DNA from: Candidatus Fermentibacterota bacterium
Lineage (GTDB): Bacteria; JAFGKV01
Direction of reading: 5' to 3'
DNA: 5,464 bases
NCBI GenBank assembly: GCA_030620115.1
Contig: JAUXFG010000218.1
Coordinates: 1-5,464, forward strand
Shown here: one piece after another, positions 2-5,464 of the stretch
Position numbering within the stretch: position 1 is the stretch's first letter
Layout: each line of letters starts with the position of its first letter
The notes under the pieces: generated by a model
What the model was told of the DNA's origin: nothing
Seen by the model: only the letters and a program-made list of their open reading frames with translations
The model's database searches: none
Translations under genes and position numbers: made by a program

Positions 2-3000
2 GGCGTCTCATGCAAAAAGATGCCTGCGCCCGTTTCGAAGGAGATGGAGCGGGCAGATACGCTCTGGGTTCCGGTGGACTCGGCAAAGGCTTGGAAGATA
101 GTGCCGGCGCGGAAAAGCGCCTGGGTCTACTATGATGCGGAGGAAGGCTCGCTCCAGGGTGGAACAAGCGTGGCGGAGGCGCTTACGGAAACCGCGCAAT
201 CCGCAGTGGAAATGGCCCCGGGCTGGCTCAAGAAGGAGCTTGCGGACAACCTGCGTCGCATGAATTCCGGACAACAGGATCGCTGTGGCGCCCTGGTGAT
301 CGACTGCCATGACAAGAGATTCGTTGACGAGGTGGCCTTCCAGGTGGCCCACCTGTCTCCGCAAGCCTTGAGCCGCATCGTCAAAGACCTACTTGTGCGC
401 AATGTCGAAGTGGCGTATCAGATAGATCCGGAGCTCTCTTTCGTGGATATCGTTGACTACGGCGACCCGGTTATGGGCGGCGACTACTACTCCACCACCA
501 GGTACCACACGTTTGAGGCCGGAGACACGGTAGAGGTTGAAATTCCCAAGGAGATCTACTACTGGTGGGTCATCATGCCAAAGTTGTCGGACGAAGAACC
601 AAGCATGGACTCTTCTGTCTACGGATACTTCTGGCGAGAATATCTCTTCTACGTTGCAGATCAGGGATATCCTCTTCTGAGAGAGAAGCTTGCGACAACC
701 CGTGTGCTCTGGGACGGTCAAGTCCACCACTTGCCGGGGGGGAGAGACTTTTCCGACAGCATGTTTGCCCTCGACGTGATCGGCAACTGGGTGTCGGAAA
801 CACTCCCCTACGCAGCCTCGGGCAACCGGCCCATTCAACCGAACATCATTGCCCACGAGCACAACGGCAACTGCGGCGAAGTTCAGGATCTCCTGGGAGC
901 AGCCTGCCGAACCGCGCTGATCCCCGTGGCGTTGACACACAATATCAACGAGGACCATGTCTGGAACGAATTCTGGTGGGATGGACAATGGCATCCGTAC
1001 CAGGTGGATCTCGGCGGAGGTTCGACACACATAAACGATCCGTACATCGCCTATGACTACGAGTATGGCGGAAGAAGGGAGGTCTCCGCAGTATGGGACT
1101 GGAGGGGTGATGGCTACCAGTGGAGCGTAGTCGAGCGATACTCTGACGCCTGCAGTCTCACGGTCAGCGTCACGGACCAGGGAGGAGTGCCGGTTGACGG
1201 AGTACTCGTCCAGCTCCACAGTGAGATGTGCGAATCGTCCGATATCTGGCCGTGCTTCTTCGGCGCCACTGATCGCCTTGGCCAGTTTACCACTGCTTTG
1301 GGGGACTCCCAGAACTACTACATTCGCATCGAGTCCGGACTCGGGGACCATCCGCCATCAGGAGTGGTCAAGATCATCAGCAGCGCGGACGCGGCGCCGG
1401 GATGTCACTTCCTTTGGGAGAAAAGCCTCCCCGGTTCCATGCCGGATCTCCCCGCCGTCCCCGCCGAGCCGCCTGAAGCAGCCTCAACGCTCCGGATGGC
1501 AATAGTCGCCCGGGTTCCCACCGAGACGCTCTACGGCAGAGACTGCTACAACGGGGGGTATGATAACGTCTATGCGAGGAAGTTCCCCGTTGGATACGTG
1601 GACTTCTTCATGGTGGGAGAGCCCGGCTTCGAGGCCTACTCTTCCTGGGACCCCTTCGACGCCTTCGGGCTCATGGAAGGTGTTACCGGACCGAGTGCCG
1701 AGTTCCTCTTGCCGAATACTGAATCGAACTGGTATGCGGTCTTCAGCAACGAGCAGTCCATGGTTCTTCAGCGCATCGTTGATTACGACATCTATCTCTA
1801 CGATAATCGTGCCCCTTCGGTGGGCGGGCCGGATATGTGGGGCTACCGGTGGACAAACTCCGGCGTTGAAGAGGGCCCGGATTTTGACTGGGTGGACATC
1901 AGTGCCACCGGCACGAGCGTGTCCATGGGAGACGACGACAACCAGGGGCCTTTCTCCATCGGTTTCAGCTTCCCGTACTACGGCGAATCGTACGACAGCC
2001 TCTGTATCTGCTCCAATGGCTGGCTCAGTTTCACGTCGGAAAGCCATGCCTACCAGAACAAAGCCATACCTGATGCACGTGATCCAAACGCGCTGCTCGC
2101 GCCGTTTTGGACTGATCTCGACCCCGGTTCCGGAGGAACAATCTCGTATTACCGGGACATCTTTGATCAGCGCTTTGTGGTCTCATGGGTCGGGATCCCT
2201 CGTGTTCCTGATCAGGGCCCCAATACCTTTCAGGCCATCCTTCACGAGGATGGAACGATTCTGTTCCAGTATGAGAACGTGAGCCCATGGGAAGGCGTGC
2301 CCCAATGCACGGCGGGGATCGAAAGCCCGGACGGTTCTGTTGGCCTCCAGTACTTCTTTGACGGTTTACCCAATGAGAATCAGCTGCGCGACGCTCTGGC
2401 GGTCAGATTCTACCGGCTCGACCGCGATGTCGGCCCGATCAGGGCACACAGCCCCATATCCAATCTGTTCCCCGGCATTCCGGTGACGCCAAGTGCCACT
2501 GTCAAGAGCTCTGGTCTCGAGCAGGTCAGCTTCGAGGTGGTATGCTCTATCGTGGAAGAGGGCGGTGGTAACTTGGTATACCAGGACACCGCACAAGTCT
2601 CGGGGCTTTCATATCTCGCGGAAAGGCAGGTGCGATTCCCATCCTGCTGGACTCCGGATCATCCGGGGACCTACACCGCTACGTTCCGGACAGTTCTCAG
2701 CGACGATCAAGATCCATCCAACAACATCATTTCTTCCGGCTCAGTCGTGGACTACGTGGCCGACATGGCATATGACGATGGATCGCCTGAGGACTGGTAC
2801 ATCACCCCTGCGGGGCCCACGGTACCAAAAGCCATGGCTGTGTGGTTCGAGACGCCGTTCCCTCAAGGGCTCATTGTGAACGGCAAGATACTCACTCAGG
2901 AAAATGCTCCTTTTGACGCCGTTTACCTCTGCCCAAGCAATGCCGCCGGGCACCCGGATCTCGGGAATTGGTATGCCTGTGACTCCTTGGTCTCAGCGCA

Positions 3001-3556
3001 GGCCGAGCAGGGATGGGCATGGGCTTCCCTCCCGCATCAGTACTCGAACAAGGAAACCCTATGGGTGGTGGCGTGCTGGGGTCTCGGAGCTTCGGAGCCG
3101 CATGTCGGGGTCGATCTCGACGCGCCCAACGACGGACATTCCTGGTACGGAAGACCCGACATAGGGATGTGGCGTCAATACGATCAGGGCGATCTGATAG
3201 TCAGACTCGAGAGCGAAATGTCTGCTTCTGCTCATGGAGCGGCACCGCTTGCCGCGGGCATAGTCCGGCTGTTGCGCGTGGGACCAAACCCACTGAGTTC
3301 CAGCGCCACCGTATGCTACCACGTGGCTCCAGGGCTGAACGGGAAACAGAGGCACGTCTCCCTGCGTGTCTACGATATGCTGGGCCGGCTCATTGCCATG
3401 CCCATTGAGCACGAATCCGTATCAGGAACACACAGAATGACATGGCATATCCCTTCACACGGCTCGGAACGAGTGCCGCCGGGATCGTATGTCCTCAGGC
3501 TTGAGGCCGACAATCCATTGGCCCGGGACACCATGCGGCTCATCGTCATTCCATGA
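2..3556 (+). CDS. Large secreted multidomain protein with transglutaminase-like domain and C-terminal sorting-type domain (5' partial)
   Basis: The frame is open to the left edge (GVSCKK precedes the first Met, at base 20). That Met has no ribosome binding site or signal peptide after it, so the true start and export signal are probably upstream. Residue numbers count from that Met. Residues 45-130 are mostly helical. Residues 270-345 are a transglutaminase-like core with GNCGE (Cys285), EDHVWNEF (His313) and YQVD (Asp330), a complete Cys-His-Asp triad. Residues 378-450 resemble a carboxypeptidase regulatory-like beta domain. Residues 604-800 form a beta-sandwich with the SNGWLSF and APFWTDLDP signatures common in FCB exoproteins. 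Residues 805-912 look Ig/CARDB-like, and 915-1067 are another beta module. Residues 1086-1178 (VGPNPLSSSAT, VYDMLGRL, PPGSYVLRLEA) match FlgD-like/type IX sorting domains. The role inferred is an exported, surface-bound or secreted enzyme that cleaves or crosslinks proteins or peptides; the substrate is unknown. It ends with TGA and has no clear operon partner. Confidence 0.9.
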   Translation, partial: GVSCKKMPAPVSKEMERADTLWVPVDSAKAWKIVPARKSAWVYYDAEEGSLQGGTSVAEALTETAQSAVEMAPGWLKKELADNLRRMNSGQQDRCGALVIDCHDKRFVDEVAFQVAHLSPQALSRIVKDLLVRNVEVAYQIDPELSFVDIVDYGDPVMGGDYYSTTRYHTFEAGDTVEVEIPKEIYYWWVIMPKLSDEEPSMDSSVYGYFWREYLFYVADQGYPLLREKLATTRVLWDGQVHHLPGGRDFSDSMFALDVIGNWVSETLPYAASGNRPIQPNIIAHEHNGNCGEVQDLLGAACRTALIPVALTHNINEDHVWNEFWWDGQWHPYQVDLGGGSTHINDPYIAYDYEYGGRREVSAVWDWRGDGYQWSVVERYSDACSLTVSVTDQGGVPVDGVLVQLHSEMCESSDIWPCFFGATDRLGQFTTALGDSQNYYIRIESGLGDHPPSGVVKIISSADAAPGCHFLWEKSLPGSMPDLPAVPAEPPEAASTLRMAIVARVPTETLYGRDCYNGGYDNVYARKFPVGYVDFFMVGEPGFEAYSSWDPFDAFGLMEGVTGPSAEFLLPNTESNWYAVFSNEQSMVLQRIVDYDIYLYDNRAPSVGGPDMWGYRWTNSGVEEGPDFDWVDISATGTSVSMGDDDNQGPFSIGFSFPYYGESYDSLCICSNGWLSFTSESHAYQNKAIPDARDPNALLAPFWTDLDPGSGGTISYYRDIFDQRFVVSWVGIPRVPDQGPNTFQAILHEDGTILFQYENVSPWEGVPQCTAGIESPDGSVGLQYFFDGLPNENQLRDALAVRFYRLDRDVGPIRAHSPISNLFPGIPVTPSATVKSSGLEQVSFEVVCSIVEEGGGNLVYQDTAQVSGLSYLAERQVRFPSCWTPDHPGTYTATFRTVLSDDQDPSNNIISSGSVVDYVADMAYDDGSPEDWYITPAGPTVPKAMAVWFETPFPQGLIVNGKILTQENAPFDAVYLCPSNAAGHPDLGNWYACDSLVSAQAEQGWAWASLPHQYSNKETLWVVACWGLGASEPHVGVDLDAPNDGHSWYGRPDIGMWRQYDQGDLIVRLESEMSASAHGAAPLAAGIVRLLRVGPNPLSSSATVCYHVAPGLNGKQRHVSLRVYDMLGRLIAMPIEHESVSGTHRMTWHIPSHGSERVPPGSYVLRLEADNPLARDTMRLIVIP
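839..1009 (+). other. Transglutaminase-like catalytic core within the large secreted protein
   Basis: This stretch encodes the residues that define the enzyme: the Cys codon at 872-874 in a GNCGE context, the His codon at 956-958 in DHVWNEFW, and the Asp codon at 1007-1009 in PYQVD. The spacing Cys-27-His-16-Asp fits the transglutaminase-like/peptide N-glycanase papain fold. In that fold Cys is the nucleophile, His follows a short loop, and Asp comes a strand later after a Trp-rich hairpin (FWWDGQWH). All three residues are intact, so the domain is predicted to be active. Bacterial members are mostly proteases, isopeptidases or amide-processing enzymes rather than true crosslinkers, so no reaction is assigned. 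Confidence 0.85.
3275..3556 (+). other. C-terminal FlgD-like / type IX secretion sorting-type domain
   Basis: The last ~93 residues have the usual pattern: an entry motif VGPNPLSSSAT, a central strand pair with VSLRVYDMLGRLIAMP, and a final PPGSYVLRLEA followed by RLIVIP at the very C-terminus. In Bacteroidota and related candidate phyla this domain directs export through the type IX system, or stands as a FlgD-like Ig fold at the end of cell-surface proteins. No type IX component is visible in the window, so the export route is inferred. It is the best single clue to the taxonomic neighbourhood. Confidence 0.75.
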
Positions 3557-3648
3557 GTAGATCCAGGAGGCCAACCGGTGAGATCATTCGGGTCAGCGCC
3601 GCCACCCGCCATCCAGCGGGACCATTCAGGGTTAGAGACTTCACTTGG

Positions 3649-3693
3649 AATCGACGAAGCTCCCGCCAAAGCTCCCGATGAGGTTCGGGAGGA
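3649..3693 (+). repeat. 45-bp direct repeat, copy 1, with internal hairpin
   Basis: This copy matches 3989-4033 at 40 of 45 positions by eye; the last 25 bases, starting AAGCTCCCGATGAGG, are identical. Inside is a perfect 7-bp inverted repeat, CTCCCGA (3672-3678) and TCGGGAG (3685-3691), around the loop TGAGGT. Differences cluster in the 5' half while the hairpin half is unchanged, which suggests the hairpin is the conserved core of a dispersed repeat. No function is known to me. Confidence 0.8.
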
Positions 3694-3707
3694 AGTTTTG
3701 GGATATT

Positions 3708-3741
3708 TCAGGACAGGCCCTTCGACTGAGCTCAGGACAGG
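3708..3741. repeat. Dispersed-type repeat: TCAGGACAGG direct repeats around CTGAGCTCAG
   Basis: TCAGGACAGG occurs at 3708-3717 and again at 3732-3741. Between them lies CCCTTCGA, leading into the perfect 10-bp palindrome CTGAGCTCAG (3726-3735), which overlaps the second copy. The core CCTTCGACTGAGCTCAGGAC resembles an intergenic element I recall as widespread in environmental bacterial genomes, but that is memory and not a search result. It probably forms a small hairpin. It sits inside spurious open frames on both strands. Confidence 0.65.
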
Positions 3742-3796
3742 TCGGGAAGTGGTTTGCACTTTCGGAACCTTCCTTGTAATGACTGAGGCCCCGGGG

Positions 3797-3870
3797 GTCA
3801 TCGCGCGCGACAGCGCGGCGATCCCGCGTACCGCGCGGGATTGCTTCGTCGTTACCCTCCTCGCAATGAC
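3797..3870. repeat. 74-bp imperfect palindromic repeat (GTCAT...GCAATGAC type)
   Basis: The left arm runs from GTCATCGCGC to GATCCCGCG and the right arm from CGCGGGATTGCTTCG to CTCGCAATGAC, with TACC in the middle. The inner arms GATCCCGCG and CGCGGGATTG pair closely, the outer ends GTCAT and ATGAC pair, and the intervening bases are only partly complementary. The right arm resembles the CATTGCGAGG...GAAGCAATC class of intergenic palindromes recalled from many bacterial lineages. A related TGTAATGAC stands just upstream at 3775-3783. It would fold as a long imperfect stem in RNA or single-stranded DNA, similar in design to REP/BIME units. Confidence 0.7.
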
Positions 3871-3918
3871 AGAGGGTGGGGTCATGGTTCTGGGATCTCT
3901 CAATAGAGATATTGCATT

Positions 3919-3942
3919 CCTATCGTGAGCCGTAGCGATAGG
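3919..3942. repeat. Short inverted repeat, 7-bp stem
   Basis: CCTATCG (3919-3925) and CGATAGG (3936-3942) are perfectly complementary around a 10-base loop. No T-tract follows in either direction, so it is not a standard terminator. It lies between the 74-bp palindrome and the second copy of the 45-bp repeat and may be part of a further repeat element. Confidence 0.5.
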
Positions 3943-3988
3943 CCAAGAGCGCAAAAGGAGAAAATGAAACATCCCGAAGTTCTGGGGA

Positions 3989-4033
3989 AATCGACAAGGC
4001 TTCCGCTGAAGCTCCCGATGAGGTTCGGGAGGA
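3989..4033 (+). repeat. 45-bp direct repeat, copy 2, with internal hairpin
   Basis: This is the second copy of the element at 3649-3693, with start points exactly 340 bases apart and in the same orientation. It keeps the CTCCCGA/TCGGGAG hairpin (4012-4018 and 4025-4031) with the same TGAGGT loop. The 5' half differs at five positions. One change set creates a second small inverted repeat, GCTTC (3999-4003) and GAAGC (4008-4012), that copy 1 lacks. Confidence 0.8.
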
Positions 4034-4065
4034 GGACGGGGAAGGATTTTGGAGGGGAAGAGGAA

Positions 4066-4104
4066 AACATCAAACATCGAACATTCAATCCGCCAGCTGG
4101 CGGA
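4066..4104. repeat. 7-nt tandem repeat abutting a 16-bp perfect palindrome
   Basis: AACATCA, AACATCG and AACATTC follow one another at 4066-4086, three heptamers with one or two changes. Two bases later comes TCCGCCAGCTGGCGGA (4089-4104), a perfect palindrome centred on CAGCTG. The AT-rich tandem followed by a GC-rich palindrome looks like a unit of a dispersed intergenic repeat rather than coding sequence. I see no protein or RNA function for it. Confidence 0.7.
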
Positions 4105-4133
4105 AACGTCGAAGTTTGGATGGGAGGAAGGGG

Positions 4134-4189
4134 AAGTTCGAGACCCGCCTTCGTCGGATGGCTTCGGCGTGGCAAGCAAAGTTCGAGAC
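4134..4189 (+). repeat. Short direct repeat AAGTTCGAGAC, two copies
   Basis: AAGTTCGAGAC occurs at 4134-4144 and 4179-4189, and a third, partial GAAGTTCGGGG follows at 4190-4200. Between the copies is CCTTCGTCGGATGGCTTCGG, a segment rich in TTCGxCG steps. The block runs directly into the ribosome binding site of the methyltransferase, so the gene's leader was apparently assembled from repeat material. Confidence 0.6.
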
Positions 4190-4213
4190 GAAGTTCGGGG
4201 GAGGGGTTTTGAC

Positions 4214-4220
4214 AGGAGGG
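4214..4220 (+). promoter_or_regulatory. Ribosome binding site of the methyltransferase gene
   Basis: AGGAGGG is a near-perfect Shine-Dalgarno sequence ending nine bases before the TTG at 4230. It decides the start: the protein then begins directly with the first membrane helix. In-frame alternatives are ATG at 4116 and 4158, whose extra residues are encoded by repeat sequence, and TTG at 4209 behind a GGGGAGGGG run with a shorter spacer. Confidence 0.6.
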
Positions 4221-4229
4221 CGAGGTAGA

Positions 4230-4700
4230 TTGGCTTTTGCAGTAGCGAGTATCACGCTTGTACTGTGTTGGTTATTGTTCTTCCTACTTCTCCATGATCC
4301 CGTCAGTCAGGTTCTCTTCGTGATAGGGAATATGGTCCTCGCGTTGGGCATACTGTTCATAATCCTTTCAATTCTCACCTTGCGCAGAAAGGGGGAACCT
4401 CGAGAAGGGGAAGCCTTCACCGCTACCATGACGCTCGTAAGGAGTGGGATCTACTCGATGGTCCGGCATCCCCTCTATCTGGGCTGGCTTCTGATGTACC
4501 CGGCGGCAATGCTGGTAAGTCAGCATTGGTTGATAGTTATCCTTGGTGTGATTGGGATGATAAGCATGGATCAAATCACGAGAGCTGCTGACGATGAGCT
4601 GGTCCAGAAATTCGGATCAGCATATGAGACCTATATGCAGGAAGTGCCGAGGCTCAATATGATCTCAGGCGTGATACGGGAGTTGCGAGGCCAGATATAG
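4230..4700 (+). CDS. Integral membrane methyltransferase of the ICMT/PEMT (isoprenylcysteine carboxyl methyltransferase-like) family
   Basis: Read from TTG at 4230 this is a 156-residue membrane protein. Residues 1-21 and 27-50 are hydrophobic helices, and 80-114 form one or two more. The family signature is clear: VRHPLYLGW (78-86) followed by DDELVQKFGSAYETY (121-135) and EVPR (138-141), the arrangement that binds S-adenosylmethionine at the membrane face in ICMT/PEMT-like enzymes. The usual EE before the FG..Y..Y motif is DD here, a conservative change. Bacterial relatives are mostly of unknown substrate; small lipids, isoprenoids or thiols are possible, so no symbol is given. The length is typical of minimal bacterial members. 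An upstream ATG at 4116 would give 194 residues, but the added Arg/Lys-rich stretch is repeat-derived. No operon partner is visible, and repeats flank it on both sides. Confidence 0.82.
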   Translation: MAFAVASITLVLCWLLFFLLLHDPVSQVLFVIGNMVLALGILFIILSILTLRRKGEPREGEAFTATMTLVRSGIYSMVRHPLYLGWLLMYPAAMLVSQHWLIVILGVIGMISMDQITRAADDELVQKFGSAYETYMQEVPRLNMISGVIRELRGQI

Positions 4701-4739
4701 GTCCGAAGCGAGTCCTTGACGTGTGACGACTCTCATCTC

Positions 4740-4765
4740 CATGATCGTCCATTTGGACGATCATG
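4740..4765. repeat. Perfect 11-bp stem hairpin after the methyltransferase gene
   Basis: CATGATCGTCC (4740-4750) and GGACGATCATG (4755-4765) are exact reverse complements around the loop ATTT. It begins 40 bases after the methyltransferase stop codon, where a transcription terminator would be expected, but CCGCGAATCC follows instead of a T-run. It could protect the 3' end of the mRNA, act as a factor-assisted terminator, or be another dispersed repeat. Confidence 0.75.
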
Positions 4766-4795
4766 CCGCGAATCCATCGTCATTTCGGCATTGAA

Positions 4796-4835
4796 ATAAA
4801 TCTCTAGTAAATCCATGGATTTACTAGAGATTTAT
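4796..4835. repeat. Perfect 40-bp palindrome centred on CCATGG
   Basis: Every base from 4796 to 4835 pairs with its mirror position, giving 20-bp arms with no spacer. The left arm begins ATAAATCTCTAG and the centre is CCATGG at 4813-4818. The element has only 10 G/C of 40, much more AT-rich than the surrounding DNA. Symmetry stops abruptly on both sides. It could extrude as a cruciform, form a stem in transcripts from either strand, or be a binding site or the fused ends of a small inverted element. It lies 30 bases beyond the preceding hairpin. Confidence 0.85.
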
Positions 4836-4906
4836 CAGAGTTGCTCTCGCCTTCATCAGACATCCACATTCTCGTGATTGGGGACCATGTGATCACGCTT
4901 CAATTC

Positions 4907-4942
4907 GATTCCGACTCCGATTCCGATAGCGATACCGATGAA
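4907..4942. repeat. Degenerate hexanucleotide tandem repeat (GATTCC-like, six units)
   Basis: The units are GATTCC, GACTCC, GATTCC, GATAGC, GATACC and GATGAA, each beginning with GA and mostly ending in C. The array explains the Ser-Glu and Gly-Ile alternation in minus-strand frames here. It looks like a decayed microsatellite, and variation in unit number between strains would be expected. Confidence 0.75.
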
Positions 4943-4950
4943 GGATGAAG

Positions 4951-5027
4951 ACATTGGCGGACATAGCCATTTTCGCCATTGTGCCCCGAAGGGGCTTGGC
5001 ATACCAGCCCAAGGCGAGACATAGCCA
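4951..5027. repeat. Repeat element with GACATAGCCA direct repeats and a GCCCC/GGGGC hairpin
   Basis: GACATAGCCA occurs at 4960-4969 and 5018-5027. Between them is the hairpin GCCCC (4983-4987), GAA, GGGGC (4991-4995), followed by CTTGGCATACCAGCCCAAGG, which carries TTGG/CCAA complementarity. The segment resembles a dispersed intergenic element that I recall producing recurring spurious peptides in environmental genomes; this is recollection only. The two direct repeats may mark its boundaries. Confidence 0.5.
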
Positions 5028-5077
5028 AGAATACGCGAAAGAACAAGATCACTGTTCTGGCGCATACCATCCCGTAG

Positions 5078-5103
5078 GTCGGGTTAGCGTAGCGTAACCC
5101 GAC
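5078..5103. repeat. GTCGGGTTA...TAACCCGAC inverted repeat
   Basis: GTCGGGTTA (5078-5086) and TAACCCGAC (5095-5103) form a perfect 9-bp stem with the loop GCGTAGCG. With the preceding CCCGTAGG it matches the GTAGG-GGGTTAGCG-TAACCC pattern that I know as a very widespread bacterial intergenic hairpin. There is no T-tract in either direction, so it is listed as a repeat rather than a terminator. Confidence 0.75.
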
Positions 5104-5137
5104 AATCCCCCATCCCCTTCCTGACGCTCCCAGACCT

Positions 5138-5168
5138 CCCCCATGTAGGGGCATGGCATGCCGTGCCC
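5138..5168. repeat. Overlapping hairpins CCCC/GGGG and GGGCATGGC/GCCGTGCCC
   Basis: GGGCATGGC (5149-5157) pairs with GCCGTGCCC (5160-5168) across an AT spacer, with a single T:G position that is a wobble pair in RNA. The upstream CCCCC (5138-5142) can pair alternatively with GGGG (5148-5151) around ATGTA, so two mutually exclusive folds are possible. The GTAGGGGCATGGCATGCC core is like other dispersed GTAGGGGC-type intergenic repeats. It lies about 100 bases beyond the 3' end of the recombinase gene. Confidence 0.65.
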
Positions 5169-5272
5169 ATCGGCTTCCGTCTGCGCTCTTCGAGCTTCGC
5201 CCACAAAAGTCGCCAGGGCGTAGTCATTCGAAGATGGGATCCCAAAATGTCAGACTATTTCTGCGCGAGCCC

Positions 5273-5464
5273 TCAGAGCGTGTCCAACGGGCTGATTACA
5301 CCGCCGGCCCCTTTGTTGAGTACATGTGTGTAGATCATCGTGGTCTCTACGTCCGAATGGCCCAATAGCTCCTGAACGGTACGGATATCATATCCCGCTT
5401 CAAGCAAATGGGTCGCAAATGAATGACGGAACGTATGACACGTGAACCGAAATGAGATCCCCGC
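5273..5464 (-). CDS. Integron-integrase-like tyrosine recombinase, C-terminal 63 residues (partial)
   Basis: Read on the minus strand from the right edge, this frame has no start codon within the window and ends with TGA at 5275-5273. It encodes the end of the catalytic domain of a tyrosine recombinase. Visible are the HxxR box in [20 protein letters not shown] (His10, Arg13 of the fragment), the second catalytic His in ELLGHSDV (His36) and the nucleophilic Tyr in TTMIYTHVL (Tyr45), so the active-site end is intact. The [24 protein letters not shown] run and the terminal [10 protein letters not shown] are characteristic of integron integrases (IntI) rather than XerC/XerD or phage integrases. 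The IntI-specific extra helix would lie upstream, outside the window. IntI enzymes recombine attI with cassette attC sites. The gene converges on the methyltransferase, and in the usual layout attI and cassettes would be on its 5' side, beyond the window. Confidence 0.9.

Follow-up and report, generated by a model that had tools for sequence, protein, structure and literature searches.

Integrase gene fragment at the right edge

The right edge of the window (the whole stretch of DNA that was analysed, 5464 bp, which is the entire contig C125) probably carries the last fifth of an integron integrase gene (intI), in a genome that has cassette arrays elsewhere, a reading to which we give a probability of about 0.8 from sequence comparison. 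On the minus strand, an open reading frame runs unbroken from the right edge at 5464 to a TGA stop codon at 5273-5275 and encodes the last 63 residues of the protein, with the 63 codons at 5276-5464 cut by the contig end and corresponding to positions 253-315 of the 315 in the integron integrase model TIGR02249. An earlier, sequence-only reading of this DNA had described the HxxR, His, and Tyr residues as intact, and both direct reading and alignment agreed: the HxxR motif HTFR lies at 5426-5437 with its H at 5435-5437 and its R at 5426-5428, the catalytic His of LGH is at 5357-5359, and the catalytic Tyr of MIYTH is at 5330-5332, all on the minus strand. That reading had also held that ordinary gene calling would miss the fragment, which proved too strong, since an internal TTG at 5407 within the integrase frame yields an ORF of 44 AA that gene callers need not miss. 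The other ~250 residues of the integrase (the N-terminal 80%), including the box I Arg and the IntI-specific extra domain, lie beyond the contig end and are absent from the data because the window is already the whole contig.

The integrase tail matched TIGR02249 with an E-value of 3.6e-34 and a score of 118.6 bits; the best of the Xer models, XerD, reached 77.6 bits. The curated cut-off of TIGR02249 is 265 bits for the full-length protein, and a tail covering 63 of 315 positions cannot reach it. Among solved structures, the best match was IntI4 (2A3V) at 1.2e-25, compared with 3.4e-14 for the best Xer structure. When aligned to the proteins of relatives, the tail scored 89-107 bits for about 75 IntI and at most 69 bits for Xer with no overlap, a gap that is supportive without being an independent trial, as the IntI tails had been collected by similarity to the window tail itself. 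The complete IntI relatives checked against NCBIfam were all above the IntI cut-off (8/8). In the alignment, the fragment ends in [10 protein letters not shown] in the manner of IntI, whereas Xer proteins end with an HPRG-type sequence, and an insert specific to IntI, located between box I and HxxR, was present in the closest complete relatives and absent from Xer. The suggestion that this C-terminal ending points to IntI was therefore upheld, as was the broader claim of an integron-integrase-like recombinase at the right edge, given a TIGR02249 match far above those to Xer.

Relative to the IntI family (TIGR02249; Vibrio cholerae IntI4/VchIntIA, PDB 2A3V), the window copy is alike in its C-terminal 63 residues, its HxxR/H/Y residues, and its SPLD tail, but differs in being the tail alone, with the IntI-specific additional domain off the contig. 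XerC and XerD have the tyrosine recombinase fold and the catalytic residues in common with it, but are without the insert seen in complete IntI relatives and have another C-terminal tail. That the fragment comes from a XerC/XerD-type or phage tyrosine recombinase bearing an IntI-like tail would account for the HxxR...Y core, which is common to both, but with Xer scores so much lower and an SPLD tail of the IntI type, we regard this as barely credible. A scan of IMG/VR for the same gene returned relatives at 64-87% identity only. For the Lentisphaerota relative L039, an island integrase bound to a tRNA was considered and rejected, as ARAGORN finds no tRNA there.

Host genome and repeats

The source genome is a 98%-complete metagenome-assembled genome (MAG) of 4.1 Mb in 296 contigs. 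Its RpoB grouped with those of KSB1, Bacteroidota, Chlorobi, and Gemmatimonadota (an 11-row group with an SH-aLRT of 99, from one gene and a quick tree), which backs the earlier guess of an FCB candidate phylum and supports the assignment of the host to an uncultured FCB-group lineage near Bacteroidota and Gemmatimonadota. Mis-binning of the contig is unlikely, because the intergenic stretch adjoining intI (4690-5275) is a patchwork of repeats whose 73 matches are spread over more than 30 contigs of this genome. This mosaic includes a perfect 40-nt palindrome at 4796-4835 with many genome copies at about 90-100%, a dispersed host repeat at 4840-5018 with many copies at 75-91% identity, and another at 5013-5218 whose best copy (C187:37141-37345, 90%) lies some 500 bp from the attC array on C187. 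The start of a further dispersed repeat, at 5231-5273, abuts the integrase stop codon and has a second copy at C64:6080-6122 (84%). We considered an intI relic at C64, where this 3' flank recurs, and rejected it, since the repeat there merely follows another gene.

Cassette arrays elsewhere in the genome

Seeds for attC sites were obtained from hairpin searches in named relatives, for which a shuffled control gave 5 matches per 0.8 Mb, and were used in two covariance models, R1 and R2. R1 was built from other genomes only and so provides independent evidence for attC, whereas R2 was partly built from sites of the genome itself. Under R1, the better sites of this genome had E-values from 3e-9 to 3e-4. 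The two models defined an array of at least five sites on one strand of contig C184 (8486, 8984, 9805, 11881, and 12585) and one of at least three sites on one strand of C187 (35016, 35756, and 36547), along with single sites on C241 and C17; all counts are lower bounds, as each search scored 150 of the roughly 1000 candidates from the first look. The ORFs between and beside the attC sites included PIN, ribbon-helix-helix, ParE-type toxin, NUDIX, and DUF6036 proteins as well as unknowns. Both C184 and C187 thus have the two or more attC sites, spaced by less than 4 kb, by which integrons are recognized, and we consider it secure, from these covariance-model matches, that the genome carries integron arrays. 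The two arrays sit inside their contigs, neither at a contig end nor adjoining an intI.

The expectation of an integron in this lineage therefore stood at the level of the genome, with attC clusters on two contigs, but not for the window, in which a search with two models and filters off gave a best attC score of 8.1 bits, the chance level. The genome resembles those with sedentary chromosomal integrons and CALIN (IntegronFinder classes, PMC9024848) in its attC clusters, its oriented cassettes, and its toxin-antitoxin-type genes within the same genome, but its arrays are without an adjacent intI in the assembly and the window is without attC.

Position of attI and of an adjoining array

In the inverted-integrase layout, known from Treponema and relatives (PMC3607928), the array lies on the 3' side of intI, and the sequence-only reading had allowed for such a layout with attI within 4701-5272. 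Among relatives with a visible array, those whose array lies 3' of intI and runs in its direction came from MAGs labelled Gemmatimonadetes, Acidobacteria, Planctomycetia, Omnitrophota, Chlorobiaceae, Cyanobium, Actinomycetota, and Deltaproteobacteria, and their intI formed one side of a tree branch with a support of 89; arrays on the 5' side were mostly found in beta- and gammaproteobacteria. In a free tree, the 63-residue fragment fell beside two PVC-lineage sequences and outside the inverted-layout clade, although 63 residues are too few for placement, and joining the fragment to that clade was not rejected (p-AU 0.90).

An inverted layout, in which a whole intI has its array within the window and 3' of the gene, would match the arrangement seen in G001 (a genome of the same family), G027, G059, and the majority of non-proteobacterial relatives whose array is visible, several of them from candidate phyla. 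However, neither an attI nor an array lies 3' of the window copy: the two models found no attC in the 5.27 kb 3' of the gene, while the first attC at other inverted loci was mostly 0.3-3.3 kb from the stop codon, and the host repeats abut the stop codon and leave no room for attI. We accordingly consider an inverted layout, which would require the array to have been lost, improbable here and do not retain the proposed attI in 4701-5272. With host repeats at the stop codon and 5.3 kb of 3' sequence without attC, any attI or array would be off the right edge, or gone.

In the former case, intI would be whole and in the standard divergent layout, and both attI and the array would follow beyond the right edge; we put this forward tentatively. 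It is favored by the repeats that begin directly 3' of the stop codon and by contig breaks in other genomes, which fall on the array side: the contig stopped no more than 1 kb from the intI 5' end in 29 of 58 cases outside the inverted clade and in 2 of 22 inside it (Fisher p 0.0007), in a comparison made after seeing the tree and with clade membership partly assigned from it. Stops near the 5' end outside the inverted clade fit arrays that break the assembly, and hence an array off the right edge. Against a standard layout, no array contig of this genome ends in intI, both arrays having been found inside their contigs.

A window without attC and arrays on other contigs would likewise be consistent with a whole but solitary integrase (In0) working in trans on the C184 and C187 arrays, and archaeal MAGs with In0 and attC clusters on other contigs have been reported (PMC9668308). 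But the 5' side of intI is off the contig and draft assemblies overcount both In0 and CALIN (PMC9024848), and we hold this arrangement to be unlikely.

Whole gene or relic

We lean slightly toward the window intI being complete in the living cell. The competing explanation, that the fragment is a truncated relic such as those in G001 and that the arrays of the genome are frozen without a complete integrase, appears somewhat doubtful to us but has several observations in its favor. The assembly, at 98% completeness, contained no 5' part of intI by profile or DNA search, nor the attI and promoters of the window intI, and a genome survey (PMC2426708) classed close to one third of intI genes as pseudogenes. 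Moreover, G001 has four truncated intI tails at separate loci with differing start positions (L117:109-261, L118:35-163, L157:3066-3173, and L158:3410-3562) and no complete intI. On the other hand, a contig break alone would also leave the 5' part missing, and the window frame and its catalytic residues are present intact, while two of the four G001 tails have lost the catalytic Tyr and a stop codon occurs in one. The window fragment also extends further 5' (to model position 298) than the G001 tails (309-325). Differences between the window tail and that of L037 fell mainly at third codon positions (0.16/0.10/0.62), as between intact genes, but the certainly truncated tail of genome G003 showed the same third-position pattern, so that a recent truncation is compatible with the codon pattern of the window as well.

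Three of the four G001 tails have attC sites 3' of them, oriented the same way. It is conceivable, though in our view rather unlikely, that integrons in this FCB family persist frozen, with truncated intI tails and attI heading cassette arrays at several loci and no complete integrase. Two of the G001 tails have in common a ~40-nt conserved 3' piece that may be attI, and several more scattered intI pieces were observed in genome G033. In three other genomes, we observed intI copies that had lost their middle (about model positions 100-290) and kept both ends (L124:2872-3190, L125:1729-2412, and L166:2615-2971). Such internally deleted genes occur in several unrelated genomes, which may be a hint that the promoter and attI are kept for array expression.

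Proposed mechanism and significance

By analogy with known IntI, the whole integrase would bind the folded single-stranded attC (bottom strand) together with the double-stranded attI. From established integron knowledge, it would be expected to cut through its Tyr and to insert or excise cassettes, leading to their capture and shuffling. Such an enzyme might act in trans on the C184 and C187 arrays, or else on an array that adjoins the gene beyond the contig, and in the standard layout attI and any adjoining array would be beyond the right edge.

IntI, CALIN, the inverted layout, and intI pseudogenes have all been described (PMC9024848, PMC3607928, PMC2426708, and PMC9668308), and Bacteroidetes/Chlorobi and Gemmatimonadota were already counted among integron hosts. 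Our data add a little-known uncultured FCB lineage to these hosts, with the attC arrays as evidence independent of the integrase match. In addition, G001, with its truncated intI tails and no complete integrase, would make it possible to test how frequently chromosomal integrons become frozen through intI loss.

Other genes and recombinases

Elsewhere in the window, a 1184-AA open frame at 2-3556 contains transglutaminase-like and NIDO domains, and its C-terminal stretch, judged by eye, resembles FCB secretion-sorting domains. A PEMT/ICMT-type membrane methyltransferase at 4116-4700 is convergent with the integrase gene, and dense dispersed repeats fill the stretches between genes at 3589-4156 and 4690-5275. 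Scans with Rfam and for tRNAs gave no matches.

Among the relatives, we observed IntI proteins extended at the N-terminus by about 130-150 residues (L042:419-1834, L087:4250-5650, L101, L103, L078, and L076), which may equal the previously described clade of fused IntI that are ~120 residues longer (PMC2426708). Finally, the locus L128:6785-10070 (G000:C196) encodes three tandem tyrosine recombinases of 415, 320, and 429 AA on one strand that resemble a recombinase trio.
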